Part shown: in pieces, positions 6,866-62,653 of the stretch
Layout of the letters: each line of letters opens with the position of its first letter
Position numbering within the stretch: the first letter of the stretch is position 1
Source of the DNA: Gammaproteobacteria bacterium
GTDB lineage: Bacteria > Pseudomonadota > Gammaproteobacteria > UBA6429 > Thiohalophilaceae
Length of the DNA stretch: 64,000 bases
NCBI GenBank assembly: GCA_016194635.1
Contig: JACQBC010000030.1
Span: 62,001-126,000, forward strand
Reading direction: 5' to 3'
Notes under the pieces: generated by a model
The model's database searches: none
What the model was told of the DNA's origin: nothing
The model's input: only the letters and a program-made list of their open reading frames with translations
Translations under genes and position numbers: made by a program

Positions 6866-7033
6866 CTAACGCATCAAATCCACACGACGTGACCTACACC
6901 GCGTTCCATTTCGATCCCCTGCTTTCATTGTTCCGCGTGTTTTGGTAGTTTATATGCTTAACAAAGTGTCAGGGCCCTTAAAACGCGGCACGAAATCTCC
7001 ACAGCTTGTTATCCCATGCATAGGATCTTGTCG

Positions 7034-8788
7034 ATGACCGTAGATGCTGTACCCGTGTACCCCGCCAAACTCGCACAGGCGCTGCGCCGTTTCGCACCTT
7101 ACCTAAAACCGCACGCACTACGCATGTTGCTAAATGTATTAGTGGTTCTGGGTGCCACGTTTAGTTCTGCGCTGTTGATCTGGATGATCGGACACGGCTT
7201 CGATCTGTTGCATGCCAGCCGTTTTAAGGAGTTGCCGCGGTATTTTCTTGGGCTAACAATCTTAGTAATACTATTGCAAGGCTTGCGTTACGCGAATTAT
7301 TACTTGTACGAATCGATGGAGCAGCGCGTGATCTTCTCGATTCGACGCGCGCTCTATGCACAGCTGTTGTTGTTGTCAACCCCGGTTAAAACCCACTATG
7401 CGGCGGGCGATCTGCTGACACGACTAGGGCAGGACGTAAGCCGGGTATCGCAGTTGTTGGTGCTGGTGCCCGGTCAGTTGTTTGCCTACGGTTTGACTTT
7501 TCTGGTCTATGTGTCGGTAGTACTGTGGATCGAACCGCGGCTAACCCTGGTGGCATTGGTCTTGTTGCCTTTGTTCTGGTGGCAGCAACGCTACTTCTCG
7601 CTGCGGACGCGCCGCTCCTCCGGAACGTTTCTCGCCCACCAGGGAGAGCTGGGTGCCTTTGAAGAACAATCCCTCGCCAATCTGCAAGGGATCAATTCGT
7701 TCAGCGCCGAGACGGTGATGTTAACCCGCTTCGCGCGGCTGTTCACCGATTTTCGCCGTGCCGCGATGCGTAATTTGCTGACCCAGAATGCCTTTGTGGT
7801 GAGTTTTGAATTGCTAGCGGCGTTGTGCGCCATTGTACTGGTGATCTTCGGCGTGCAGGCGATCGGACGCGGCGCGTTGACCCTGGGCGGTTTGATCAAC
7901 TTTCTCCTATATATAGGCTACCTCGCCAAACCGCTGCAGGGCCTGGCCAATATTCCCGTGGAGTCGCAGATCCGCGCCGCCGCCGCTGCACGGGTGGCGG
8001 AAATCCTGGATACCGTGCCCATGGTGCAAGAGCGCGTACCGGCGCGGGTGTTGACGGAGGTTGCCGGTCATGTGCGCTTCGCCGCTGTCAGTTTTGCGTA
8101 TCCGGGCGGATCGCCGCTGCTACGCAACTTCAACCTCGATATCCGCGCGGGCGAATTTATCGGATTGGTGGGAACGAGCGGTTCTGGAAAATCCACGTTG
8201 GCACGGTTGTTATTACGCTTCTACGATCCCACCCACGGCAGCCTATCGCTGGATGGCCATGATCTGCGTGAACTAAGCCTGGCGTCGTTACGCGCCCAGA
8301 TCGCCGTGGTGTGGCAAGAGCCGTTTTTACTTGACGACAGCGTGCGGGCCAATCTACTACTGGCCAATGCGGGCGCGAGTGAAACGGATCTGATCAGCGC
8401 CGCACAACAAGCACAGGCACATGAATTTATTACTCAACTGCCACAGGGTTACGCGACACGGCTCGGCGCCCAGGGAGCGCGGCTGTCCAGCGGGCAACGG
8501 CAGCGCCTGGCGATCGCCCAGGCATTACTCAAAAAATCGTCCTTGCTGATATTTGATGAAGCGACCTCCGCGCTCGATGCACAGGCGGAGATGGCCTTGT
8601 TACAGGCCTTGACGTTTGTGCGCGGCGGGCGGACTACGATTGTTATCGCACATCGATACTCTACCCTGCAGGGAGTTGATCGGATTGTTTATTTAAACGG
8701 CGACGGTAGCGCCGATGTTGGTACCCATGCGGAATTAGTGCAATACCATGCAGGCTACCGTGCGGCGCTGGCGCATCAACGAAAATGA
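7034..8788 (+). CDS. ABC exporter, permease and ATPase in one chain (MsbA-like type)
   Basis: An N-terminal transmembrane domain of about six helices (residues 30-310) is joined to a nucleotide-binding domain. The latter carries Walker A GTSGSGKSTLARLL, a Q-loop glutamine in VVWQEPFLL, the signature LSSGQRQRL, Walker B LLIFDEATSALD and the H-loop AHRYS. All catalytic residues are present. Such half-transporters act as homodimers at the inner membrane and export lipids or hydrophobic compounds; the substrate here is not identifiable. An ATG at 7034 has AGGA 9 bases upstream and is preferred over the ATG at 7016, which has none. The 3' end overlaps the convergent next gene by 13 bases. Confidence 0.9.
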   Translation: MTVDAVPVYPAKLAQALRRFAPYLKPHALRMLLNVLVVLGATFSSALLIWMIGHGFDLLHASRFKELPRYFLGLTILVILLQGLRYANYYLYESMEQRVIFSIRRALYAQLLLLSTPVKTHYAAGDLLTRLGQDVSRVSQLLVLVPGQLFAYGLTFLVYVSVVLWIEPRLTLVALVLLPLFWWQQRYFSLRTRRSSGTFLAHQGELGAFEEQSLANLQGINSFSAETVMLTRFARLFTDFRRAAMRNLLTQNAFVVSFELLAALCAIVLVIFGVQAIGRGALTLGGLINFLLYIGYLAKPLQGLANIPVESQIRAAAAARVAEILDTVPMVQERVPARVLTEVAGHVRFAAVSFAYPGGSPLLRNFNLDIRAGEFIGLVGTSGSGKSTLARLLLRFYDPTHGSLSLDGHDLRELSLASLRAQIAVVWQEPFLLDDSVRANLLLANAGASETDLISAAQQAQAHEFITQLPQGYATRLGAQGARLSSGQRQRLAIAQALLKKSSLLIFDEATSALDAQAEMALLQALTFVRGGRTTIVIAHRYSTLQGVDRIVYLNGDGSADVGTHAELVQYHAGYRAALAHQRK

Positions 8789-11700
8789 AACGCCCACAAT
8801 GTTTCTTTATGTAATGCAAAGGTTTGTTGCTGAGTGAGTTCATCGATAACTTGCCGCAGGATACGGGTTCGCGCGGCTTCATCCTGTTGCGTAACTTGAC
8901 CGGCTAGCTTTTTTAAACGCTCTATTTCATTACTAATGGTTGTCGTCCATTGCTGGGTCTTGGCTGCGAACATACCGGGATTGCCGCTGTTGGTGTAATA
9001 ACGCAACAATACCAGCATCTGCGGGATGTCATCGGCGCCATGTAGATCAAGCCTATCCAAGGCGGCGCCTGCTACGGGTAAGTTGGTGCGGGCAACGGCC
9101 AATAACTGCCATTTGCGTTCCTCCGCGTCATGTGTACGAAGCGCGGCGAGATGAGACCAGTCCTTGGTTTTATACAGCAACTGCGCGTACACGGCATGCC
9201 GCACGGCGGGGTCTTTAATCCGTTGCAAGGTCTGCCGCGCGGCATTGATCTGGCCTTGTTGCGCCAATAACAGGGCATGTTGTTTATAGGTGCGGTCGGG
9301 CCATTGCCGGTATTGCGCATAGAGTCGCGCTGCAGTCGCGTAATCATAGGCCCGCCAAGCACGTTCATACTCCACACCCCGGCCGCGTATCGGATCGATC
9401 TTGGCAAGTTGCTGCGCGGCCTTTTCGGCAAGCTCGGTGTCATTCCAGAAGAAATAATGATCGGCTTGCGCGTACAACCGATCCGCCGCCTGTTCGCCAA
9501 GATAGGGAATTAGATCCAAATGAAAATGCTTGCGCAAAAATGTATAAGGATCTTCAGCGCCGCTGGGTTGAGTGGTCAGCGCCGACAAGCGTACTTCGGA
9601 AAGCAGGTTGGTATCGGTATTGGGCCTGGCAGTACCCGCGGCTGCCAGCATTTCATTACGCGACAGTGCAAAGTACCAGAGCAGATCCGCCGGTGTATAT
9701 ATATCGTGGGTGCTAAGGGTTGCCTTGATCTTAGGTTGTTCGAGAATACGGGCGATACGCGCGTAATCAAAACTGAGCGGCTGTTTTGATCCGATTAAGA
9801 TCAGGTCTCCGGTGTTGATGTTCGCGAAACTCAGGCCCTGTGGGTACACTTGATAAAACGCCTGAAACAGTGATTGTAGCGTGGTGGCGTCCATTCGAAA
9901 CAGGTTAACCCATTGTCCAAATACACCGTCGGGATTTAAACGGGATTTAGTCAGTGCCCAGAACTGACGTGTGAACACATTGGCGGCACCCGCCAGCCAC
10001 GGATGGGAAGGTTGCGCGACAATCAGATCGTAGTAGGTAGGTTCGACCAGCAGGGTATTGCGGGCGTCATTAAAATCCAGCCGCACGCGTGGGTCCTGTA
10101 GCGCGGGAATTTCTCCGTTGGAAACATGCCGATCCGCCTCAACCACGGCCGGTTCGAGTTCCACCACGTGGATCGACTCGAGATCGGTGAGCGTCAAGGC
10201 CCGTGTCGTGATCCCGCCGCCAAAACCCACCACGAACGCCGATTTCGGCGCAGGGTGTAACATATACGGGACGAGGCCAAGCAAAGTTTCAGTCAGCAAC
10301 GCCTGGTTGGGGTCGTGCATGTGGATCAAGGATTCATTCAACCCATTGTTCTGCAATTTCGCAATGGTATCGTCGTAAGTCACTAGACTGATGACACCGG
10401 CCTTGCCCTCGGCCAAGTATAAGAACTTGGGTTTCTTGCTATTCATAGCATCGGGGTCCCATTGATAATTCACGGAGGCAATCAATGCGGCATAACTTAA
10501 GTGCGGGGCCTGCCAAGCCGCTACTAACGCCAGGCTAACAGACGCCAGTAGGGCCATACGTCGCGCCATGCGCTGCAACCTGCCTAAAAAAATAAGCGCC
10601 AGTAGTAGGATCAGCGCCGCCATCAGCGTCAGTAAATGATCGGTCCCGTAGCGCGGGATAAACCAAAACCCGGCAAAGATCGCACCGAAAATACTGGCGA
10701 CGGTATTGATCGCATAGGCCTTGCCGATACGCGCACGCACCGCGTGTAGGCTCCCACAATATAATTTAAGATTGAGTGGGAACAAGGCGCCGAGCAAGAA
10801 GGTGGGGATAAACAACAGTGCAAACACGATGCTATATTTCGTCAAGTGCTGGAGTAAAGCCGCCGTCTTATAATGATTGACGGCGTCGTAAATTTGCGGG
10901 AGCAGACTAAAACCGGCCCGCGTCGCAACCAAGGCGAGGCCCAACAACACCAACCCCAGGGCCATCCACACGTGCGGCGCGCGGATCTTCTCAAGCCGCG
11001 ATTTAATGACCCAGGAACCCACGGCAATACCACTGAGGAACACCGTTAAGATCGCGGCGAATCCATACAGGGTGGTGCCGGTAAAAATGGCCAGATATTT
11101 TGTCCACCCCACCTGGGTAGCAATGGAAACAAAGCCGGTACAAGCCAAAATAATCAAGGCGCGCCGACGATCGATGCTGTCATCGGTGTTTGCCGTCGGA
11201 TCGGTGGATGTCGCCGCCGGCAAGACCTCGATAGGCGGCAAGACCCAGGTGCGGCTGGCGTAGAACGCCGCGATTACAATAGCCATGTTTATCGTAAAGG
11301 CGATATAGATCGAACCGTCCAAGCCCCAATGAGGAATAAAAACAAACCCCGTTAACGCCGCGCCTAAGACAGCGCCGGCGGTATTCAGGCTGTAGAGCTG
11401 ACTCATACGCAGGCCGATTTCATTGTGCTGGCGGATCAGGATCGAGGCCATGACGGGAAATGTGGCGCCCATGCACAAGGTAGGAAGGGACAATAACAGC
11501 AAGGCCACGGCAAACTTGAGACTGAGTGTTGTGCCCATCGCCGGAACCAAGGCCAGCACTCCATCCAGGTGCAGCAAGATCGGTAATAACATCAAGCCGC
11601 TGATGCCGATCAAAAGTTCCAACACAAGATAGGGAGTAAAACTATGAATCCGGTGGCGGGTGATGCGCTCGGCTAAATAACTGCCCATCGCCATACCCAG

Positions 11701-11841
11701 AAAAAATGCGGCCAGCACGGTGCTGATTGAGGCGCTGGTGGAACCCATGCTCAAGCCCAGCAGCCGCACCCAGGTTACTTGGTAGGTTAAACTGGCGATG
11801 CCCGAGAGCACTAGAAAACTAGCGGCAACTACGACGTGCAT
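8776..11841 (-). CDS. Fused MFS-like membrane protein / spermidine-synthase-like domain / TPR tail
   Basis: The 1021-residue product has three parts. Residues 1 to about 430 are a membrane domain of many helices in two similar halves, beginning LVLSGIASLTYQVTWVRLLG, the hallmark of fused MFS/spermidine synthases. Residues about 470-720 are a Rossmann domain like spermidine synthase, with VVGFGGGITTRAL, HVVELEPAVVE and YDLIVAQPSHPW. The final 250 residues are helical and TPR-like (WNDTELAEKAAQQLAKIDP and following). The reaction is unknown; homologues often lack the polyamine-site residues. It is transcribed divergently from the Met/Gly peptide cluster and shares its 270-base upstream region. 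Confidence 0.85.
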   Translation of the reverse strand: MHVVVAASFLVLSGIASLTYQVTWVRLLGLSMGSTSASISTVLAAFFLGMAMGSYLAERITRHRIHSFTPYLVLELLIGISGLMLLPILLHLDGVLALVPAMGTTLSLKFAVALLLLSLPTLCMGATFPVMASILIRQHNEIGLRMSQLYSLNTAGAVLGAALTGFVFIPHWGLDGSIYIAFTINMAIVIAAFYASRTWVLPPIEVLPAATSTDPTANTDDSIDRRRALIILACTGFVSIATQVGWTKYLAIFTGTTLYGFAAILTVFLSGIAVGSWVIKSRLEKIRAPHVWMALGLVLLGLALVATRAGFSLLPQIYDAVNHYKTAALLQHLTKYSIVFALLFIPTFLLGALFPLNLKLYCGSLHAVRARIGKAYAINTVASIFGAIFAGFWFIPRYGTDHLLTLMAALILLLALIFLGRLQRMARRMALLASVSLALVAAWQAPHLSYAALIASVNYQWDPDAMNSKKPKFLYLAEGKAGVISLVTYDDTIAKLQNNGLNESLIHMHDPNQALLTETLLGLVPYMLHPAPKSAFVVGFGGGITTRALTLTDLESIHVVELEPAVVEADRHVSNGEIPALQDPRVRLDFNDARNTLLVEPTYYDLIVAQPSHPWLAGAANVFTRQFWALTKSRLNPDGVFGQWVNLFRMDATTLQSLFQAFYQVYPQGLSFANINTGDLILIGSKQPLSFDYARIARILEQPKIKATLSTHDIYTPADLLWYFALSRNEMLAAAGTARPNTDTNLLSEVRLSALTTQPSGAEDPYTFLRKHFHLDLIPYLGEQAADRLYAQADHYFFWNDTELAEKAAQQLAKIDPIRGRGVEYERAWRAYDYATAARLYAQYRQWPDRTYKQHALLLAQQGQINAARQTLQRIKDPAVRHAVYAQLLYKTKDWSHLAALRTHDAEERKWQLLAVARTNLPVAGAALDRLDLHGADDIPQMLVLLRYYTNSGNPGMFAAKTQQWTTTISNEIERLKKLAGQVTQQDEAARTRILRQVIDELTQQQTFALHKETLWAFHFR

Positions 11842-11988
11842 GCGGCCTCCTCAAGGTAAAACGTAATATATCAATAGCAGGTAAAAGAGGCTGTTTATAA
11901 ATACAGTGTATGATTATTTCCATAATTATAATGTTATTTACTGTTTCTGCGAACTGTAGCGCGATCATACACAACGAAAATTCCAGAA

Positions 11989-12006
11989 CTGTCCGAAAAC
12001 GGACAG
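11989..12006. promoter_or_regulatory. 18-bp dyad CTGTCCGAAAACGGACAG, candidate Crp/Fnr-type operator
   Basis: The site is a perfect 7-bp inverted repeat around four A's. Read as TGTCC-N6-GGACA it has exactly the geometry of Crp/Fnr-family operators (5-bp half-sites, 6-bp spacer). The centre (11997.5) is about 42 bases upstream of the start expected for a TAATTT -10 hexamer at 12028-12033, the class II activator position. A matching dyad lies at 15391-15408 ahead of the oxidase genes, and a Crp/Fnr gene sits between the two. The rest of 11842-12113 is AT-rich and holds no gene; another short dyad, CTGT-N8-ACAG, is at 11891-11906. Confidence 0.6.
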
Positions 12007-12113
12007 ATGCAACCGGAAGGGTTCCAGTAATTTATCGCCTCGTTCAGCAGTCCAGGTGGATTACTGAATTCTGTCAAACTGAAACTTTAGTTAAACTCAA
12101 CTAGGAGGTATGT

Positions 12114-12206
12114 ATGGGTGGTGGAATGGGTGGTGGAATGGGTGGTGGAATGGGTGGTGGTATGGGCGGCGGCATGGGCGGCGGCGGTATGGGCGGCGGC
12201 ATGTAA
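12114..12206 (+). CDS. 30-residue (Met-Gly-Gly-Gly)n peptide
   Basis: The frame encodes five MGGG units, one MGGGG, one MGGG and a final Met: 8 methionines and 22 glycines with no other residue. AGGAGG at 12103-12108 is spaced 5 bases from this ATG; an overlapping ATG at 12110 is only 1 base from it and opens a Trp-rich frame, so 12114 is chosen. The codons drift from GGT/GGA in the first half to GGC in the second, so the repeat is kept at protein level and is not a pure DNA microsatellite. Similar Met/Gly tracts occur in the oxidase at 16611. Methionine clusters bind Cu(I) or Ag(I) in other proteins, so a metal-binding peptide is a reasonable guess. No signal or leader peptide is visible. 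It is followed by two hairpins and the asnB-type gene. Confidence 0.65.
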   Translation: MGGGMGGGMGGGMGGGMGGGMGGGGMGGGM

Positions 12207-12212
12207 CCGTAC

Positions 12213-12233
12213 GAGGGCTGAACCACGGCCCTC
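12213..12233 (+). terminator. Small hairpin after the Met/Gly peptide gene
   Basis: GAGGGC (12213-12218) pairs with GCCCTC (12228-12233) across a 9-base loop, 6 bases after the peptide stop. No T-run follows, so it is more likely an mRNA-stabilising or processing hairpin than a strong terminator. Confidence 0.4.
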
Positions 12234-12247
12234 TTACTGCGAAAATC

Positions 12248-12269
12248 AACGGCACCTTCGGGTGCCGTT
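12248..12269 (+). promoter_or_regulatory. TTCG-capped hairpin directly ahead of the asnB-type start
   Basis: AACGGCACC (12248-12256) pairs perfectly with GGTGCCGTT (12261-12269) across a TTCG tetraloop, a very stable cap. The ATG of the next gene is at 12276, only 6 bases further on. The hairpin occupies the place of a Shine-Dalgarno sequence, and no purine-rich site is seen. It may act as a weak terminator after the peptide gene, as a translational block on the downstream gene, or both. Confidence 0.55.
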
Positions 12270-12275
12270 GTCGTT

Positions 12276-14267
12276 ATGTGCGGTATCGCAATTATTTTCT
12301 ACCATAATGGCAGCACACCTGAGGCCTGGCGTGCGCGTGCCATGCATCGCGCACTCGCGCATCGTGGTCCCGATGCGGCCAATGTGGTATTACGTGCCGG
12401 TGTGGCCCTGGCGCACGCGCGTTTGAGTATTGTCGATATCCAAGGCGGCGCGCAGCCCATGCAGACCCCGGATGGACAGTATGCGATTACCTACAACGGT
12501 GAGATTTACAATTACCGTCAATTACGCCAATCGCTGATCGAGCGCGGCCTACCGTTTCGCAGCCAGTCGGATACCGAGGTGGTACTGAACGCCTACCGGG
12601 AATTCGGCGCGCGGGCGTTGGTCAAGTTGCGCGGCATGTTCGCGTTTGCGATCCATGATCGCTACCGCGGCGAACTGTTCATGGCACGCGACCGCTTGGG
12701 TATTAAACCGCTGTATTATTATAATGATGAGCGTGTGTTTGTCGCCGCTTCGGAGATCAAGGCCATCTATGCCTCTGGTCTGGTTAAACCGGAGTTGAAC
12801 CGCGCCTCAATACAAAACTATTTCAGTTATCAATTTGCCATCGCCCCGCACACAGCTTTCACGCATATTTATGAATTACCCCCAGCGCATAGCTTGTGTA
12901 TCAACGCTGGTAACGCGCCACGTATCAGCCGCTACTGGGATCTAAACTTCCCAGCCGCGGGGGATTACGAGAGCATGGACGAGACGTATTGGACTCAACA
13001 GTTTACCGATACATTTCAAAACGCGGTGACCAGCCACGGCATCGGCGAGGCACCGATCGGTAGTTATCTGTCCGGTGGCATCGACTCGTGCAGTATCACG
13101 CGTCTATTGGCCGATAGTCAGCCGCGGCTGCAGACCTTTTCCATCGGATTCGATAATGCCGACTATGACGAGTCATCCCAGTATCGTGCAATAGCCGCCT
13201 CCATGGGCGTGGCAAACGCAGAGTTGCGCTTGCAGGATGAACGGCCGCAGGGTTATCTCGATGACCTGGTGCAGTGTATTTATCATCTCGAACAACCGCA
13301 AAGAATGGCGGTCGACATCCCACATTATCTTTTATCCGGCTTGGTGCGGCAGAAAACTTATAAAGTTGTCTACACCGGCGACGGTGCGGATGAGCTATTG
13401 GCGGGTTACGATTGTTTTCGCCAGGACCAGATGCGGGTTTGGTCGAACGGTCCGCTAAAAAGCCGCTTACGGCGCTGGTATTACCTGCGTCGTCATACAC
13501 GTTATTTTCCGCGTGAGCATATGCGCCTGCTGCTTGCTCTGCACACGCGCCGTACACAACAGCACACTATAAACAGATTTGGATTTTATCCCGCATGGCA
13601 TGATTTCTGGCAAATCACACGACAACAGCGGACAGGTATCATGCGCGAAGACGCCTCGATAAACGGCGAAGCGCAGATGGACGCGCTGGTCGCGGGCATG
13701 CAATCGCATCTCGTCGGGCGTGATGCCCTCAATCAATCGCTCTATTTCGAGCTGAAAACCCGCTTGCCAGGATGGATTTTATGGAAAAGCGACCGCCTCA
13801 GTATGGCGCATGGGGTGGAGGCGCGGGTACCTTTTCTCGATCACCCCTTGGTTGAATTGATTGCGCGCATGCCACCGCAGATGAAACTCAACGGGTTGAA
13901 TGAAAAATATATTTTAAAGAAATCCATGCTGCCCCGGCTACCCGAGACCGCGCACGGCTACCGCAAACGCGGCTTCTATACACCGATCAGTGCTTGGTTT
14001 TTTACTTCCAACCGCAGAGAAGAGCTCGCGCCGTATCTTTCACGCGAGGCCCTGATTAAAACAGATCTGTTCGATCCTGAGCGCGTCATGGCCTTACAGC
14101 GGGAATTACAAGGGATCTCAAAACCGCTCGACCTGCAGACAGGTTACAGACTCATGCGGATCGAGTGGATATTATTCACTGTATTGACCACCCAAATACT
14201 CCATCACCTGTACATGGGTAACCACCAGCACATGATGCCGTCTAAACACACGGTTTTGGAATGCTAA
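12276..14267 (+). CDS. AsnB-type glutamine-dependent asparagine synthetase / amidotransferase
   Basis: The 663-residue protein begins MCGIAII, so the catalytic Cys2 of the class II glutaminase domain is intact, followed by HRGPDA and YNGEIYN. The synthetase domain has the PP-loop YLSGGIDSC and VVYTGDGADELLAGYD. It would make asparagine, or amidate another carboxylate, using glutamine and ATP. At 663 residues it is about 110 longer than E. coli AsnB and nearer to the amidotransferases found in secondary or envelope gene clusters, so its substrate need not be aspartate. Its start follows a stable hairpin with no clear ribosome site, and it probably shares the promoter of the Met/Gly peptide. 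It converges on the Crp/Fnr gene with a 35-base gap. Confidence 0.88.
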   Translation: MCGIAIIFYHNGSTPEAWRARAMHRALAHRGPDAANVVLRAGVALAHARLSIVDIQGGAQPMQTPDGQYAITYNGEIYNYRQLRQSLIERGLPFRSQSDTEVVLNAYREFGARALVKLRGMFAFAIHDRYRGELFMARDRLGIKPLYYYNDERVFVAASEIKAIYASGLVKPELNRASIQNYFSYQFAIAPHTAFTHIYELPPAHSLCINAGNAPRISRYWDLNFPAAGDYESMDETYWTQQFTDTFQNAVTSHGIGEAPIGSYLSGGIDSCSITRLLADSQPRLQTFSIGFDNADYDESSQYRAIAASMGVANAELRLQDERPQGYLDDLVQCIYHLEQPQRMAVDIPHYLLSGLVRQKTYKVVYTGDGADELLAGYDCFRQDQMRVWSNGPLKSRLRRWYYLRRHTRYFPREHMRLLLALHTRRTQQHTINRFGFYPAWHDFWQITRQQRTGIMREDASINGEAQMDALVAGMQSHLVGRDALNQSLYFELKTRLPGWILWKSDRLSMAHGVEARVPFLDHPLVELIARMPPQMKLNGLNEKYILKKSMLPRLPETAHGYRKRGFYTPISAWFFTSNRREELAPYLSREALIKTDLFDPERVMALQRELQGISKPLDLQTGYRLMRIEWILFTVLTTQILHHLYMGNHQHMMPSKHTVLEC

Positions 14268-14302: not shown

Positions 14303-15085
14303 CTACGGTTCGCTACACACTCGCACTGCATTCTTGCGCAGTTTTGTTGCCCTGCGATCGTTTGTCATCCTGCGATTGAACATCACGATACTGCTGGTGC
14401 CGTTGGCGATCTGGTGTAGGTCTTCAGGTTTTTTGATGATGATATAACGCCGATCGATATCGACAACCTCGCGGCGTTTCATTTCCGCCAAACAGGTACT
14501 CACCCCCTGGCGGCGCGAACCCACCATGTCGGCGATGTCTTGTTCGGTCAGTGGGATACCGATTCGAATGTATTCCCCGATTACCATACCCCGAGTTGCG
14601 CCTAGACGTAGGAGAAGTTGCGCGACCTCCATCTGGATATTGCCGCTGGCAAGACTTAAAAACCGTTGGCCAAGTTCACGCATCCGCTCCGCCATGATCT
14701 TCATCAGGGAAAATGTAATTTCTGGCTTCGTGGCAAGCCATGCAGTAAACTGAGCATGCGCAACACATAACACTTCACAGGGTTCTACCGCGTAGGCGGA
14801 AACCAGCCTGGGTATACTTTGCACGCACTCGGCCAAACCGAAAATTTCTCCCGCGAGGGAGAACCAGAGCAACACATCACGCCCTTCGGCCGAGCTCACA
14901 AAAAGTTTGACACGCCCATGTTTTAAAACGAATACTGTAAAGTCCGTTTCCCCTGCCGTAAATATGAAATCATTCTTGGCGTATATTCGGTTCCTACCGA
15001 CACGATAGAGTTCATTTCTGTCACTATCTTGTAGTTGGGACAAAAAATTTGTATGGGCACCGGTTGTTTGGTGCGAATCAGTCAT
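14303..15085 (-). CDS. Crp/Fnr-family transcription regulator
   Basis: The 260-residue protein has an N-terminal cyclic-nucleotide-binding-like beta-roll (about 20-130), a long dimerisation helix and a C-terminal winged HTH (LTEQDIADMVGSRRQGVSTCL). The recognition helix reads RRQGVST where Crp has RETVGR and Fnr has VETISR, so the usual glutamate is a glutamine and altered half-site preference is expected. No N-terminal cysteine cluster for a 4Fe-4S sensor is present, so it is not a classical oxygen-sensing Fnr. The basic tail after residue 230 (RRMTNDRRATKLRK) is extra. It sits between two matching dyads with Crp-like spacing (11989 and 15391), which are its most likely targets. AGGAG precedes the ATG at 15085. 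Confidence 0.9.
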   Translation of the reverse strand: MTDSHQTTGAHTNFLSQLQDSDRNELYRVGRNRIYAKNDFIFTAGETDFTVFVLKHGRVKLFVSSAEGRDVLLWFSLAGEIFGLAECVQSIPRLVSAYAVEPCEVLCVAHAQFTAWLATKPEITFSLMKIMAERMRELGQRFLSLASGNIQMEVAQLLLRLGATRGMVIGEYIRIGIPLTEQDIADMVGSRRQGVSTCLAEMKRREVVDIDRRYIIIKKPEDLHQIANGTSSIVMFNRRMTNDRRATKLRKNAVRVCSEP

Positions 15086-15390: not shown

Positions 15391-15442
15391 CTGTCCGATT
15401 TATGACAGAAAAGTTAAGAATTATAAATTTATAGTGCCGCAC
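15391..15442 (+). promoter_or_regulatory. Candidate class II promoter of the oxidase operon with a Crp/Fnr-type operator
   Basis: The operator CTGTCCGATTTATGACAG (15391-15408) shares its first eight and last five bases with the dyad at 11989 and has the same 18-bp span. TATAGT at 15430-15435 is a good -10 hexamer and predicts a start near 15441-15442. The operator centre (15399.5) then falls at about -41.5, the position used by Crp and Fnr in class II activation. No clear -35 hexamer is seen, as expected for an activator-dependent promoter. Confidence 0.6.
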
Positions 15443-15487: not shown

Positions 15488-16528
15488 ATGAAAATGAACA
15501 GACGAGAGTTTTTACAGCGTGCCAGTGTTATCGGCGCAACCGTGGCTGGGTCCGCTGGATTGTTATCATGGGCCCCCAGTGCCGCAGCAGCACAAACGTA
15601 CGCGGTTAACTTGACGGCGATGAGCGGTGATGTCACGCAAATTGATGGTACCACCGCCTTCATGTTTGGTTTCAGTAATACCGGTGTACTGACCGTGCCC
15701 GGGCCGACGATCATTTGTCAAGCAGGCGATTCTATTCTGCTGACCTTGAGTAACACGCTGAACACACCCGTGGTCTTCGCAGTCCCTGGCACCAGTATCA
15801 AACTCACCACCCCCGCCAATGGTTCGCTGCAATTTGCCTTTGCGGCGCCCGCTCCTGGCAGCTATCTCTATTGCGACGATCAAAACAGCGGTGTGAATCG
15901 CGTCATGGGCTTGCATGGATCCTTGGTTGTCATGCCGTTAGGAATTAAAAACCAAGCGTTCACAGCCGGGCCGAAATTCAAACGTCAATTCAAATGGCTG
16001 TTGGGCAATGTCGATCCCGTGTGGGGTAACGCGGTAAAGGCCAACGGTGATAATTACGTTAAATCTATCGTTGCCTCCAGTTTCCTACCCCGTTATTTTA
16101 CCATCAACGGTAACAGCTTCGATAAAACCCACGAACCCAATACCGATCTGTACGGTTTATACGGTGAGCCGGCGCTGGTACGCCTGATGAATGCCGGGGG
16201 GATGGTGCACTCGCCGCATTTCCACGGTAACCACGTTGAAATCTGCAGTATCAATCGCACCAACTTCAGTAGCAATCGCCTGCTCAAGGATGTTGTATCG
16301 ATGTACCCACTGGATTGTCGCGATGTGATCTTTCCGTTCATACAACCGCCGGACGCATGGCCACCGATTACCGTTGAGCCACAAAACTACCCCATGCATT
16401 GCCATTCGGAAATGTCGCAAACCGCGGGCGGTGGCATGTATCCGCATGGCCTGCATTGCGCCATGGGGCTTGGCAAGCTTCCGCTCGTTGAATCGGATTT
16501 GACCCTGGGCGTAGCAGCGCTTCCCTGA
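15488..16528 (+). CDS. Tat-exported multicopper-oxidase-like protein carrying only the C-terminal copper motifs
   Basis: A clear Tat signal (NRREFLQ at residues 4-10, then a hydrophobic stretch to AAAA at about 35) shows export in the folded state. The first cupredoxin-like domain (about 36-150) has lost the usual HxHG and HxH ligands: it reads VVFAVPG and YLYCDDQNSG where these would be. The second domain keeps the C-terminal motifs HSPHFHGNH (241-249; HxxHxH) and HCHSEMSQTAGGGM (304-317). In the latter the usual third His of HCHxxxH is Ser. A full trinuclear site therefore needs ligands from elsewhere, and the next gene encodes a partner with exactly the missing N-terminal motifs. GGAG lies about 10 bases upstream of the ATG. 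Confidence 0.85.
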   Translation: MKMNRREFLQRASVIGATVAGSAGLLSWAPSAAAAQTYAVNLTAMSGDVTQIDGTTAFMFGFSNTGVLTVPGPTIICQAGDSILLTLSNTLNTPVVFAVPGTSIKLTTPANGSLQFAFAAPAPGSYLYCDDQNSGVNRVMGLHGSLVVMPLGIKNQAFTAGPKFKRQFKWLLGNVDPVWGNAVKANGDNYVKSIVASSFLPRYFTINGNSFDKTHEPNTDLYGLYGEPALVRLMNAGGMVHSPHFHGNHVEICSINRTNFSSNRLLKDVVSMYPLDCRDVIFPFIQPPDAWPPITVEPQNYPMHCHSEMSQTAGGGMYPHGLHCAMGLGKLPLVESDLTLGVAALP

Positions 16529-16610: not shown

Positions 16611-17693
16611 ATGCTAAGTCAATTTGGAAATAACACTTATGTAAAACAGCAAGCCATGGGCGGTGGTATGGGCGGTGGCGGTGGTATGGGGGGCGGCGGT
16701 TGTGGCCCCGCCGGTATCACGGGCAACTGTGGTCTGAACCCCGATGCACCAGCGACACCCGGACCACCCATCACGCCGGATATAGAATTTTTCCGGGTCA
16801 CCTTCATGCAAGGCAGTCAAGTGATCAACGGCGTCACCGTACCGGTATGGGGTTTTAACGACGCTGCCGGCGGTGGCGGCATGGGCGGCATGGGCGGACG
16901 TTTTCCGGCCCCCCTCATCCGCGTACGCCAAGGCCAAATCGTGCATACGCATCTGAACGCCATGGCGATGATGGTGCCGCACACTATCCACCACCACGGT
17001 ATCGAACCCTCTACGTTTAACGATGGGGTTGGACATTACTCATTTGACGTCCTGGGGGACTATACCTACCAATGGCGCGCCTCACAGGCAGGTACGTACT
17101 TTTATCATTGCCACGTCAACACCGTCTTACACGCCGAGATGGGCATGTATGGCGCGTTGATTGTTGACCCTCCCACCGGCCCTGGAACCCCCTTTGTCGG
17201 CGGACCCGCGTACGACGTCGAGGCCATCTGGGCGGTCGACGATATCGATCCGACGTGGCACTGCCTGCCCTGGAATGCCGCACTGTGCGGGGGCGATGCG
17301 CGCCTGAATAATTTCAATCCGACCTTGTTTTGCATCAACGGACTGGGCGCGGACCTCACCCAAACCGACCCCACGGTCGCCATCACGGTACCGCGCGGTA
17401 GGACCTTGTTGTTGCGATATATCATGGCGGGTTATGTCCCACAGCGGGTAAAATTTCCCACCGGCATCGGCGCCATCACGATCGTTGCCCAGGATGGTCG
17501 GCCATTAAAAGCGGCGCAAACGCTCGCGGCGGGTAGTTCGGTCAGTATGACCTCCGCGGAGCGTTATGAATTTATTATTAAGCCAACCACCGCCGGCACC
17601 TTCCCCGTTGATATCAGCTATTTCAACTACCGTGCGATCAGCGGCACATTGAGCCAGATCGGTACCATTCGTTCCATCATTACGGTGACCTAA
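16611..17693 (+). CDS. Multicopper-oxidase-like protein with Met/Gly-rich N-terminus and only the N-terminal copper motifs
   Basis: Residues 16-30 are Met/Gly tracts (MGGGM, MGGGG), echoing the free peptide at 12114, and a second tract lies at 87-96. Residues 112-130 contain HTHLNA and HTIHHHG, and 165-179 contain YHCHVNTVLHAEMGM with Cys, His and Met able to form a type 1 copper site. The second half (about 235-360) is cupredoxin-like but has no His ligands and lacks the C-terminal HxxHxH and HCH motifs. It therefore complements the preceding protein. It has no signal peptide, and the upstream frame offers none, although the partner has a Tat signal. Co-export of a folded heterodimer would explain this. 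The gene follows its partner by 82 bases. Confidence 0.8.
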   Translation: MLSQFGNNTYVKQQAMGGGMGGGGGMGGGGCGPAGITGNCGLNPDAPATPGPPITPDIEFFRVTFMQGSQVINGVTVPVWGFNDAAGGGGMGGMGGRFPAPLIRVRQGQIVHTHLNAMAMMVPHTIHHHGIEPSTFNDGVGHYSFDVLGDYTYQWRASQAGTYFYHCHVNTVLHAEMGMYGALIVDPPTGPGTPFVGGPAYDVEAIWAVDDIDPTWHCLPWNAALCGGDARLNNFNPTLFCINGLGADLTQTDPTVAITVPRGRTLLLRYIMAGYVPQRVKFPTGIGAITIVAQDGRPLKAAQTLAAGSSVSMTSAERYEFIIKPTTAGTFPVDISYFNYRAISGTLSQIGTIRSIITVT

Positions 17694-17768: not shown

Positions 17769-18500
17769 ATGCGCCTTCATTCTTATCTCGCATTGTTACT
17801 GTGCGTAGCGTTACCACTGCCCGCCGCGGCCAACATGGCCAACGTTGTGGTTAGTCCCGCCGATCACGAATTGCTTATGGCGGTCGGTCAAGGTCAAATG
17901 GCGCGTGTCGAAACCTTGTTACAAATGGGTGCGAACGTCAATACCCGGCATCCGCCTTGGCAACTCACCCCGCTGCTGGTCGCCAGTGAAATGAATTCCG
18001 CGATGGTAAAATTACTTTTAGGCCATAGCGCTGAAGTAAACGTCTCCGACCGCGAAGGTATGACCCCTTTGATGAAAGCGGTTGACCTGCGCGATCTGTC
18101 GATGGTCGCCCTGCTATTGGATGCCGGCGCACGCGTTAACACCCAGGACCAGCGCGGCCATACCGCCCTCAGCCACGCCGTGTTGCGCAGCGACGCCGCC
18201 ATCTTGAAGCTCTTGATCAAGCGCGGCGCCGACGTAGATGTCGTTGCGGCACTGGGCACGACACCCTGGAGTATCGCGCAGCGAATGCACGCCGCGGCCT
18301 TAGCGATGCACGACGATCTCGATGCGGAAGCCCATGCGCACATGCATATGCACATGCCGGGACATGCCAGCCACCCCATGCGCAATAAGCAAGAATCCCT
18401 AGCTCAAACCCAGGCGGTGTTGGACATACTCGCGACGACGGGGGTGCAACGCCCACAACAACCTGTAAAATTCGATGCGCTGGAGCTGCATGGTCATTAG
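17769..18500 (+). CDS. Exported ankyrin-repeat protein with a His/Met-rich segment
   Basis: The 243-residue protein starts with a Sec signal (residues 1-21, ending PAAA). About four ankyrin repeats follow (about 30-175), recognisable from LLQMGANVNT, LLLGHSAEVNV, LLLDAGARVNT and LIKRGADVDV. After them, residues 187-204 alternate His, Ala and Met (AHAHMHMHMPGHASHPM), a likely soft-metal-binding segment in the periplasm. AGGAG lies 12 bases upstream of the ATG. Its position behind two copper oxidases and its His/Met tail suggest a metal-handling or scaffold partner, as ankyrin proteins elsewhere accompany periplasmic redox enzymes (for example AnkB with catalase). The precise role is unknown. 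Confidence 0.85.
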   Translation: MRLHSYLALLLCVALPLPAAANMANVVVSPADHELLMAVGQGQMARVETLLQMGANVNTRHPPWQLTPLLVASEMNSAMVKLLLGHSAEVNVSDREGMTPLMKAVDLRDLSMVALLLDAGARVNTQDQRGHTALSHAVLRSDAAILKLLIKRGADVDVVAALGTTPWSIAQRMHAAALAMHDDLDAEAHAHMHMHMPGHASHPMRNKQESLAQTQAVLDILATTGVQRPQQPVKFDALELHGH

Positions 18501-61698: not shown

Positions 61699-61723
61699 TT
61701 GAAATAGTATGGAGAGAATGTCA

Positions 61724-62065
61724 ATGTCAAAGAAAATTTTAGCAATGATTATCGGTTCATTTTTCGCAGCCAGTCTGGCGCTGACTCAACTCGCTGTCGC
61801 CGCTGACGCTGCAGCACCGGCTGCTGAGGCTACCCCTGCTGAACACAAAGAGGGTAAATGCGGCGGAGATATGAAGAAAGAAGGTAAATGCGGTGCCGAT
61901 AAGAAGAAAAAAGACGGTAAGTGCGGCGGCGATAAGAAGAAAAAAGACGGCAAATGCGGTGGCGATAAGAAAGATGGCAAGGACGGCGCTGACAAGAAGA
62001 AAGACGGTAAATGCGGTGAAGGCAAGTGCGGTGGCGACAAGAAAGAAGGCGACACCAAGAAATAA
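61724..62065 (+). CDS. HvfA/bufferin-like copper-binding RiPP precursor with Lys-Cys-Gly repeats
   Basis: The ATG at 61724 follows GGAGAGAATGTCA and gives 113 residues. A Sec signal (about 1-26) and an Ala/Pro/Glu linker lead to a low-complexity region (43-113) with six KCG motifs (Cys 46, 56, 67, 78, 97, 102), most as EGKCGGD or DGKCGGD, plus one degenerate KDG at 86-88. EGKCG-type repeats mark HvfA precursors, whose cysteines are turned into oxazolone-thioamide copper ligands by an MNIO (DUF692) enzyme with a DUF2063 partner, exported and used against copper stress. The following gene is DoxX, a usual companion. The MNIO and DUF2063 genes are absent here, so modification must occur in trans or not at all. 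Confidence 0.78.
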   Translation: MSKKILAMIIGSFFAASLALTQLAVAADAAAPAAEATPAEHKEGKCGGDMKKEGKCGADKKKKDGKCGGDKKKKDGKCGGDKKDGKDGADKKKDGKCGEGKCGGDKKEGDTKK

Positions 62066-62182: not shown

Positions 62183-62653
62183 ATGAAGACTTTATTCGCC
62201 CGCACCTATAACCTAGTATTTAGCCCATTAAACTCCCTCGGCCATTATCTTCCAGCCGCGGGACTACGCCTGCTGCTTGCTTATGAATTTTGGGAATCCG
62301 GGATAGAAAAACTTCACGGAACTAACTGGTTTGGTGATATCTATGACAAGTTTCCGTTTCCATTGAATCTGCTATCAACAGACCTGAATTGGTTCTTGGC
62401 CACCTGGTCAGAACTACTCGGCGCGACCGCTCTAGTACTTGGTCTGGCCACGCGTTTTTCTAGCATCACCTTGATTTTTGTTACCGTTATCGCCTGGATT
62501 ACCAGCCATCCCGGTGGTTATTCGATTTCAAACGGTGGTTACAAATTACCCCTCATCTATGTAGTCATGCTCTTGCCCTTGCTGTTTTGTGGGCCGGGCA
62601 AGTTGAGTCTGGATCACCTTATCAGCCGCAAATATAACCGGGAGAAACACTGA
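62183..62653 (+). CDS. DoxX-family membrane protein
   Basis: The 156-residue protein has four helices typical of DoxX, with LRLLLAYEFWESGIEKLHG in the first and LATRFSSITLIFVTVIAWI. DoxX proteins are frequent members of hvf/buf operons, which supports reading the preceding gene as an HvfA-like precursor. Its biochemical role is unsettled; quinone-linked thiol chemistry has been proposed for relatives. It lies 118 bases after the precursor gene, across a terminator, and converges on argG. Confidence 0.87.
   Translation: MKTLFARTYNLVFSPLNSLGHYLPAAGLRLLLAYEFWESGIEKLHGTNWFGDIYDKFPFPLNLLSTDLNWFLATWSELLGATALVLGLATRFSSITLIFVTVIAWITSHPGGYSISNGGYKLPLIYVVMLLPLLFCGPGKLSLDHLISRKYNREKH

Follow-up and report, generated by a model that had tools for sequence, protein, structure and literature searches.

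An apparently undescribed family of free-standing Met/Gly micro-proteins divergent from an MFS/spermidine-synthase-like gene

A short open reading frame (ORF) coding for nothing but methionine and glycine, found in a 64,000-nucleotide stretch of a gammaproteobacterial genome (the window; its genome is G000), seems to belong to a conserved and so far undescribed family of stand-alone micro-proteins composed almost only of these two residues. The ORF recurs in relatives, at the same position beside a gene for a fused MFS/spermidine-synthase-like (MFS/SpdSyn-like) membrane protein. A search of the open literature, with subscription papers and small-protein catalogues outside its scope, returned no description of such a gene. 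As to its role, we tentatively favour an envelope or exported peptide that would hold soft metals.

Results

A Met/Gly-only ORF with its own ribosome site

12103-12108 (+): AGGAGG ribosome-binding site, 5 bases before the ATG; comparable sites in all 12 ORF-bearing genomes
12114-12206 (+): ORF of 30 codons and a stop for a Met/Gly-only micro-protein; 11 further genomes have an ORF in the same place

The ORF translates as MGGGMGGGMGGGMGGGMGGGMGGGGMGGGM (the coordinates include the stop). The original prediction had described a peptide of 8 Met and 22 Gly and nothing else behind a well-placed ribosome site, and both the translation and the AGGAGG with its 5-base spacer agree with this; the drift in codon choice along the repeat was likewise found, the first units using GGT and GGA and the last units GGC. 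Successive units differ in base only at third codon positions, and in length once, by one codon. An in-frame TAG stands upstream of the start, with three codons between it and the ATG. The peptide has Met as its sole functional or reactive side chain, no signal peptide is apparent on it, and no leader precedes the Met/Gly run in the ORFs read. The 30 residues have no match in Pfam and are not fused to a cupredoxin domain; with Pfam and PHROGs no family passed the cut-off for the peptides tested, such models being scarcely able to match a two-letter sequence.

The DNA pattern for (MGGG)2MGG has its sole occurrence in the window genome in this ORF and, among 58 genomes (G000 and 57 relatives), it was found in one further genome, within an oxidase homologue. 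A scan of 1,134,058 bases for an ATG, at least 15 ATG or GGN codons and a stop, made on question-targeted DNA with duplicates included and not on a random genome sample, matched ORFs of the window kind (6 genomes) and five GroEL 3' ends, and nothing else.

Recurrence in five families of one class

8776-11841 (-): membrane protein fusing MFS and spermidine-synthase-like parts, C-terminal part helical; conserved divergent neighbour of the ORF; NCBIfam MFS_SpdSyn over cut-off

The clade of the window's MFS/SpdSyn-like gene has members in 16 different genomes. In the whole-genome searches, which are samples, it was counted in 8 of 369 genomes of the class, 6 of 24 in the order of G335, 5 of 5 in that of G137 and 1 of 3 in that of G072; among the 398 genomes of the phylum sample the only one to have it was the window genome. 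G414 (448 bases upstream, then the contig end) and G425 (contig beginning inside the gene) were excluded as neither presence nor absence. A short Gly-rich ORF behind a ribosome site and divergent from the MFS/SpdSyn-like gene is present in 12 of the 14 readable genomes, window included, which gives a positive outcome to the check for short Met/Gly frames in relatives that had been put forward at the outset. The 12 genomes represent five families of one class.

The seven complete ORFs (G000, G072, G422, G412, G409, G423 and G424) range from 29 to 60 codons and consist of Met and Gly only, apart from one Arg in G412. Six of them end in MGGGM-stop; the seventh, that of G409 (8 Met in 60), ends in GGGM-stop. 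Internal Met is found in 10 of the 12 ORFs, those of G137 and G352 having only Gly in the readable part after the start. The genomes are mostly draft assemblies, several of them broken or N-filled at the repeat: the ORF of G335 runs into the contig end after 28 Met/Gly codons, NN interrupts the frame in G069 and G352, and in G137 Met and nine Gly are followed by other codons up to the contig end. As an observation apart, the peptide of G408 (L171, 5753-5974, minus strand) is built of MSGGGGG units and changes frame in mid-ORF, each half being Met/Gly/Ser in its own frame; the change is either a sequence error or real. The loss of the ribosome site, or a shift of frame in the repeat, had been named beforehand as speaking against the gene: the site is kept in 12 of 12, whereas the repeat changes frame in one genome (G408) and is interrupted by NN in two (G069 and G352).

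No such ORF is present in the readable divergent slot of G163 or G194. In the 47.8 of 50.9 kb of the G163 contig that was read, neither such an ORF nor the ABC gene was found. In a tree of the MFS/SpdSyn clade, several forks of which are open, the ORF is present across the groups and G163 is sister to the window gene, which suggests that the ORF was lost in G163. Of the viral scans, one gave no match and another one pattern stretch but no relative; a plasmid tblastn search gave no match at E<=1e-40.

A second Met-Gly ORF, with an Ala/Pro-rich tail and convergent to the ABC exporter gene, was seen in both members of one genus, G423 (L173, 11887-12081, plus strand), where it starts MGMGGGM, and G424 (L174, 10998-11183, plus strand).

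Coding and selection

A ribosome-like site precedes the run in all 12 ORF-bearing genomes. Start codons were chosen by a script that requires such a string, and in readings free of that requirement the runs begin at the same ATG; in G422, G412, G072 and G409 the frame is open some way further upstream, so that there the start is placed by the ribosome site. In the eight gap-free ORFs (the seven complete ones and that of G335; G069, G352, G137 and G408 were left out for gaps, contig edge or frame change), GGG accounts for none of 237 Gly codons; in the neighbouring genes of these eight genomes it accounts for 85 of 504. Under equal codon use the chance of this would be about 1e-20; avoidance of long G runs may contribute to it. 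Between G423 and G424 the ORF differs by 7 substitutions, all of them at the third codon position, and has indels of 6, 3 and 3; in the flanks, indel lengths of 1, 2, 4 and 16 are among those seen. Amino-acid composition is kept across the relatives; codons and length vary.

On the strength of the presence in 12 of 14 genomes, the conserved ends, the lack of GGG codons, the substitutions confined to third positions and the indels of 3 or 6, the Met/Gly ORF is, as far as comparison of genomes can tell, a conserved protein-coding gene. The claim that the pattern is maintained at the protein level, made originally from the window alone, is strongly supported.

In G072, G422, G412, G069 and G352 a hairpin (about -20 kcal/mol, scored without shuffle controls) followed by a T-rich tail lies about 90 to 190 bases after the ORF. 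The hairpin is weaker in G423 and G424, and only a poor one occurs in G408; none that resembles a terminator was found in G000, where 69 bases were scanned, or in G409. Lying between convergent genes, these hairpins may serve the ABC gene too.

The MFS/spermidine-synthase-like partner

By the gene orders compared, the constant partner of the Met/Gly peptide is the MFS/SpdSyn-like gene. The predicted fold of its product is weak (mean pLDDT 61) and was used for the helical ends only. The SpdSyn-like domain reads QPSHP where 1uir has DLTDP and 1iy9 has DSTEP, QPSHP being invariant in 7 aligned members, and it has no acidic residue at the GGG[E/D]G position of the solved synthases. Acidic residues in these motifs belong to the active site of aminopropyltransferases. 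Because of both replacements polyamine synthesis by the domain appears unlikely, and we rejected 8776-11841 as a true spermidine synthase.

On the far side of the SpdSyn-like gene, the genomes of f65 and f102 (L169, L170 and L173-L175) carry UspA, multihaem cytochrome and molybdopterin-like genes; one cytochrome and one molybdopterin-like gene were scanned, and they resemble QrcA and QrcB below the NCBIfam cut-offs. In G423, formyltransferase-like and 2OG-Fe(II) oxygenase genes stand between the two Met-Gly ORFs, and by eye similar ORFs are found there in G424.

The ABC exporter neighbour

7016-8788 (+): MsbA-like ABC exporter; converges with 8776-11841; neighbour of the module in relatives

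In 10 genomes (G000, G194, G352, G069, G072, G412, G408, G409, G423 and G424) the module has, at a distance of up to about 6 kb, an ABC gene matching that of the window. None was found in G422 in the 1.9 kb between the ORF and the contig end, and the contigs of G335, G137, G414 and G425 end too soon to judge. Nine of these genes share 33-59% identity with one another and 31-39% with one generic exporter, which makes most of them likely orthologues, with weak support in the case of G000 and G194. In G352, G069, G072, G412 and G408 the ORF and the ABC gene converge, with a terminator-like hairpin between them in the first four; in G409 the ABC gene lies 0.7 kb downstream on the same strand. In G423 and G424 other genes separate the first Met/Gly ORF from the ABC gene, which the second one adjoins.

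This neighbourhood bears on an explanation in which the peptide is the substrate of modification and export, the SpdSyn-like protein or another tailoring enzyme acting on it (for example on the Met sulphur or the ends) and the ABC protein exporting it, in the manner of a RiPP. The pairing of the ORF with a SpdSyn-like domain and, mostly, with an ABC exporter agrees with it, as do the formyltransferase-like and oxygenase genes of G423 and their look-alikes in G424. Yet the peptide offers almost no modifiable side chains and no leader, the SpdSyn-like domain is without the aminopropyltransferase acidic residues, and the three exporters tested have no peptidase domain, so that we hold this explanation to be unlikely. 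Its double-glycine variant was rejected. Export of that kind employs an exporter with a C39 peptidase domain and a cleavable leader, and for the exporters of G000, G412 and G423 only ABC_membrane and ABC_tran came over the cut-off, with no C39 domain, nor does a leader precede the run.

Downstream genes and putative regulatory sites

11989-12006: palindrome CTGTCCGAAAACGGACAG; not conserved upstream of the peptide in relatives
12248-12269 (+): hairpin AACGGCACC-TTCG-GGTGCCGTT between the ORF and asnB; without a T run, not scored as a terminator
12276-14267 (+): asparagine synthase-like amidotransferase (asnB); no match in the relative loci compared
14303-15085 (-): Crp/Fnr-family regulator
15391-15408: CTGTCCG-N6-GACAG matched exactly a second time, ahead of the oxidase operon

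In the window asnB follows the ORF by 69 bases on the same strand, behind the hairpin. This arrangement, and more loosely that of G409 with its ABC gene 0.7 kb downstream, would suit a function at the RNA level, in which translation of the Gly/Met run, or stalling on it, controls the neighbouring gene and the peptide itself is idle. We judge such a leader function very improbable: in the five genomes G352, G069, G072, G412 and G408 ABC, the next gene known, runs towards the ORF, the hairpin lying in between in the first four, so that the ORF is not a leader of ABC there; composition is kept while codons and length vary; and Rfam gave no match at E<=1 in 11700-12400. A leader of asnB as the general role was rejected.

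The original prediction had placed the peptide and the oxidase described below in one regulon. The two 18-bp sites, the first with a spacing that we take to be like that of a Crp/Fnr-type site, are the only exact matches in the window genome, and near matches stand at about the control level (genome-wide, 109 against 86 in the forward and 108 against 103 in the reverse direction; within the window, 43 where 40.5 were expected). Among the 11 other genomes, a distantly similar TGTC-N8-GACA precedes the peptide in G137 only. The comparison thus did not uphold the shared regulon, for which the pair of sites is at best suggestive.

The multicopper oxidase

15488-16528 (+): cupredoxin-type protein, partner of the oxidase; the Tat-like N-terminus is our reading of the sequence
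16611-17693 (+): multicopper oxidase-like protein with Met-Gly tracts at 16656-16700 and 16869-16898

Multicopper oxidases of the CueO type have Met-rich segments. Met/Gly tracts had been reported inside the nearby oxidase, and they are indeed there, at residues 16-30 and 87-96 of a protein coded 4.4 kb from the ORF. The oxidase family was found in 22 of 369 genomes of the class at E<=1e-30. A run of at least 10 Met/Gly residues with at least 2 Met lies inside the oxidase in 9 of 18 oxidase regions, and by this count the tract is a recurring feature of the family; the first 140 residues of the oxidases of G137 and G352, which are distant, contain no Met-Gly tract. The 18 regions (three of them from G194, several cut by contig ends) yielded no free Met/Gly ORF. 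Directly after the window's oxidase comes an ankyrin-repeat protein with an HMHMHM stretch (17769-18500, plus strand), and homologues of it take the same place in L079 and L080.

In the class sample, oxidase matches are more frequent in genomes with the MFS/SpdSyn clade (5 of 8) than in the others (17 of 361; p=2e-5, or 2.5e-4 when the seed genome is dropped and 2.5e-3 when, in addition, only one of the congeners G137 and G352 is kept), values in which kinship is corrected for that one genus only. In G194 the order is ABC, oxidase, cupredoxin and the divergent MFS/SpdSyn gene, the oxidase operon thus occupying the slot of the peptide. G335 has the peptide, yet does not belong to the 22 genomes that have an oxidase match at E<=1e-30, and G335, G069 and G163 alike have the clade gene with no such match. 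An exclusive tie of the peptide to the oxidase was rejected on account of G335, and we regard the copper-oxidase link as secondary. The tract of the oxidase resembles the peptide in being Met-Gly, coded nearby in the window and found in the same slot in G194; it differs in being part of an enzyme, whereas the peptide occurs in G335 with no oxidase match. The notion of a free version of an oxidase domain therefore holds in part: the tracts of the family and the shared slot speak for it, and the constant MFS/SpdSyn-like partner and G335 against it. A local duplicate of the oxidase N-terminus was also set aside; the G194 slot leaves such an origin possible, but homology is unprovable from low-complexity sequence.

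The same slot would accord with a functionless relic or spill-over, copied from the N-terminal tract of the oxidase or from a GroEL tail, or arisen by GGN/ATG expansion; low-complexity repeats expand easily, the complete ORFs vary between 29 and 60 codons, and there is the frame change of G408. Against this, the start, the ribosome site, the mostly MGGGM-stop end and the codon bias are kept in five families of a class, and among readable slots the ORF is absent in G163 and G194 only. We consider a relic the least probable of the explanations weighed here.

GroEL tails and other Met/Gly sequences

The GroEL tail is, in the DNA scanned, a main other source of Met/Gly runs. When genome contigs were scanned for AGGAG, a short spacer and (MGGG)2M at an ATG, the one match was a GroEL C-terminal tail in an Accumulibacter record; the pattern is narrow and would miss most of the relatives' ORFs, and the window's own genome was possibly outside the scan. 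Like the window ORF, the Gly-Gly-Met tail of GroEL is a Met/Gly-only run at a stop codon. Unlike it, the tail closes a chaperonin of 550 aa, whereas each ORF described here is a gene in its own right, with a start and a ribosome site, to which several genomes add a terminator-like hairpin. The single GroEL detected for the window genome lies on another contig and ends in HGHGAPGGMGGMDGMM; a GroEL tail fragment was therefore rejected as the nature of the ORF, which moreover has an in-frame TAG shortly before its ATG. The GroEL proteins of the window genome and of G001, of the same genus (L120 and L119), were seen to have a His/Gly-bearing tail with few GGM repeats. GroEL genes or GroEL-like tails were also noted in G408 (L171, 1578-3239, near ABC), in G012 (L154, 5106-6719, near a more distant SpdSyn homologue) and in G352 (L148, 15118-15201); a test for GroEL found no match in 14 of 16 loci, having missed the tail-like fragment at the edge of L148.

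The likeness raises a structural or chaperone-like role, in which the peptide would form polyproline-II-type bundles as the GGM tail of GroEL may do, and would work in trans as part of a protein or membrane complex. Apart from the ORFs, GroEL tails were the one class of such stop-ending runs found, PPII bundles have been modelled or proposed for them (PMC12571646), and GroEL lies near the genes named above in G408 and G012. This role is nonetheless distinctly unlikely in our estimate: Met spacing is irregular rather than every third residue, the genome's own GroEL tail is different, and most loci are without a GroEL match.

Bufferins carry a Cys motif and a signal peptide and have an MNIO (DUF692) partner. 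The window peptide differs in having no Cys, no leader and no adjoining MNIO gene, and a bufferin or other MNIO RiPP was rejected, the peptide lacking Cys and no MNIO family being found among the neighbouring proteins scanned. Elsewhere in the window, a small protein with a signal-like N-terminus and repeated EGKCGG/DGKCGG motifs (61709-62065, plus strand), presumably similar to bufferin precursors, is followed by an ORF (62183-62653, plus strand) that we take to be DoxX-like. Bufferins and the Met/Gly peptide are alike in being small ribosomal peptides, bufferins being described as MNIO-modified copper-chelating RiPPs (PMC12452194); a soft-metal role is only proposed for the peptide studied here.

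Synthetic Met/Gly peptides bind gold. M6G9 (MMMGGGMGGGMGGGM) binds gold nanoparticles at 26.5 nM by calorimetry, with the leading MMM needed and the GGGM repeats not critical (PMC13323719). The window peptide opens with the 13 residues that close M6G9, MGGGMGGGMGGGM; unlike the natural ORF, M6G9 serves as a surface-display tag. MGGGM has been used in gold break junctions, where the thioether binds gold (PMC11317557).

Discussion

The explanation that we tentatively favour is that of an envelope or exported soft-metal peptide. Such a peptide would be a flexible, uncharged chain of thioether ligands binding a soft metal, with Cu(I) the likeliest, and would be moved or processed at the envelope by the ABC exporter and the MFS/SpdSyn-like membrane protein. 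In the window genome and in G194, the same chemistry would also be present as the Met-Gly tracts of a multicopper oxidase coded close by. We rank this reading above modification and export, and the latter above a structural role, because Met is the sole reactive side chain, because the clade and the oxidase family co-occur and because Met/Gly peptides bind gold. Points against this reading are that Met is not constant (none after the start in the readable parts of G352 and G137, 8 in 60 in G409), that G335, G069 and G163 are without an oxidase match at E<=1e-30, that the oxidases of G137 and G352 are distant and tract-free at the N-terminus, that no signal peptide is apparent and that gold binding by M6G9 depended on its leading MMM. 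As judged from composition and context, copper binding by the peptide is a plausible conjecture.

All together, it is possible, if less assured than the soft-metal role as such, that these ORFs represent a new class of two-letter (Met/Gly) metallopeptide, a leaderless thioether polymer that would be released or processed by the MsbA-like exporter and the MFS/SpdSyn-like protein and would hold soft metals at the envelope, the same tract being also built into a multicopper oxidase family.

Genes so short and of such low complexity are easily missed by annotation and by low-complexity filters, and the comparison made here leaves a clear record of selection on one of them. If the peptide is metal-binding, it would be a minimal natural ligand of Cu(I) or Ag(I) made without Cys or His. 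In that case the MFS/spermidine-synthase fusion proteins, for which we know of no test of their role, would gain their first testable partner.
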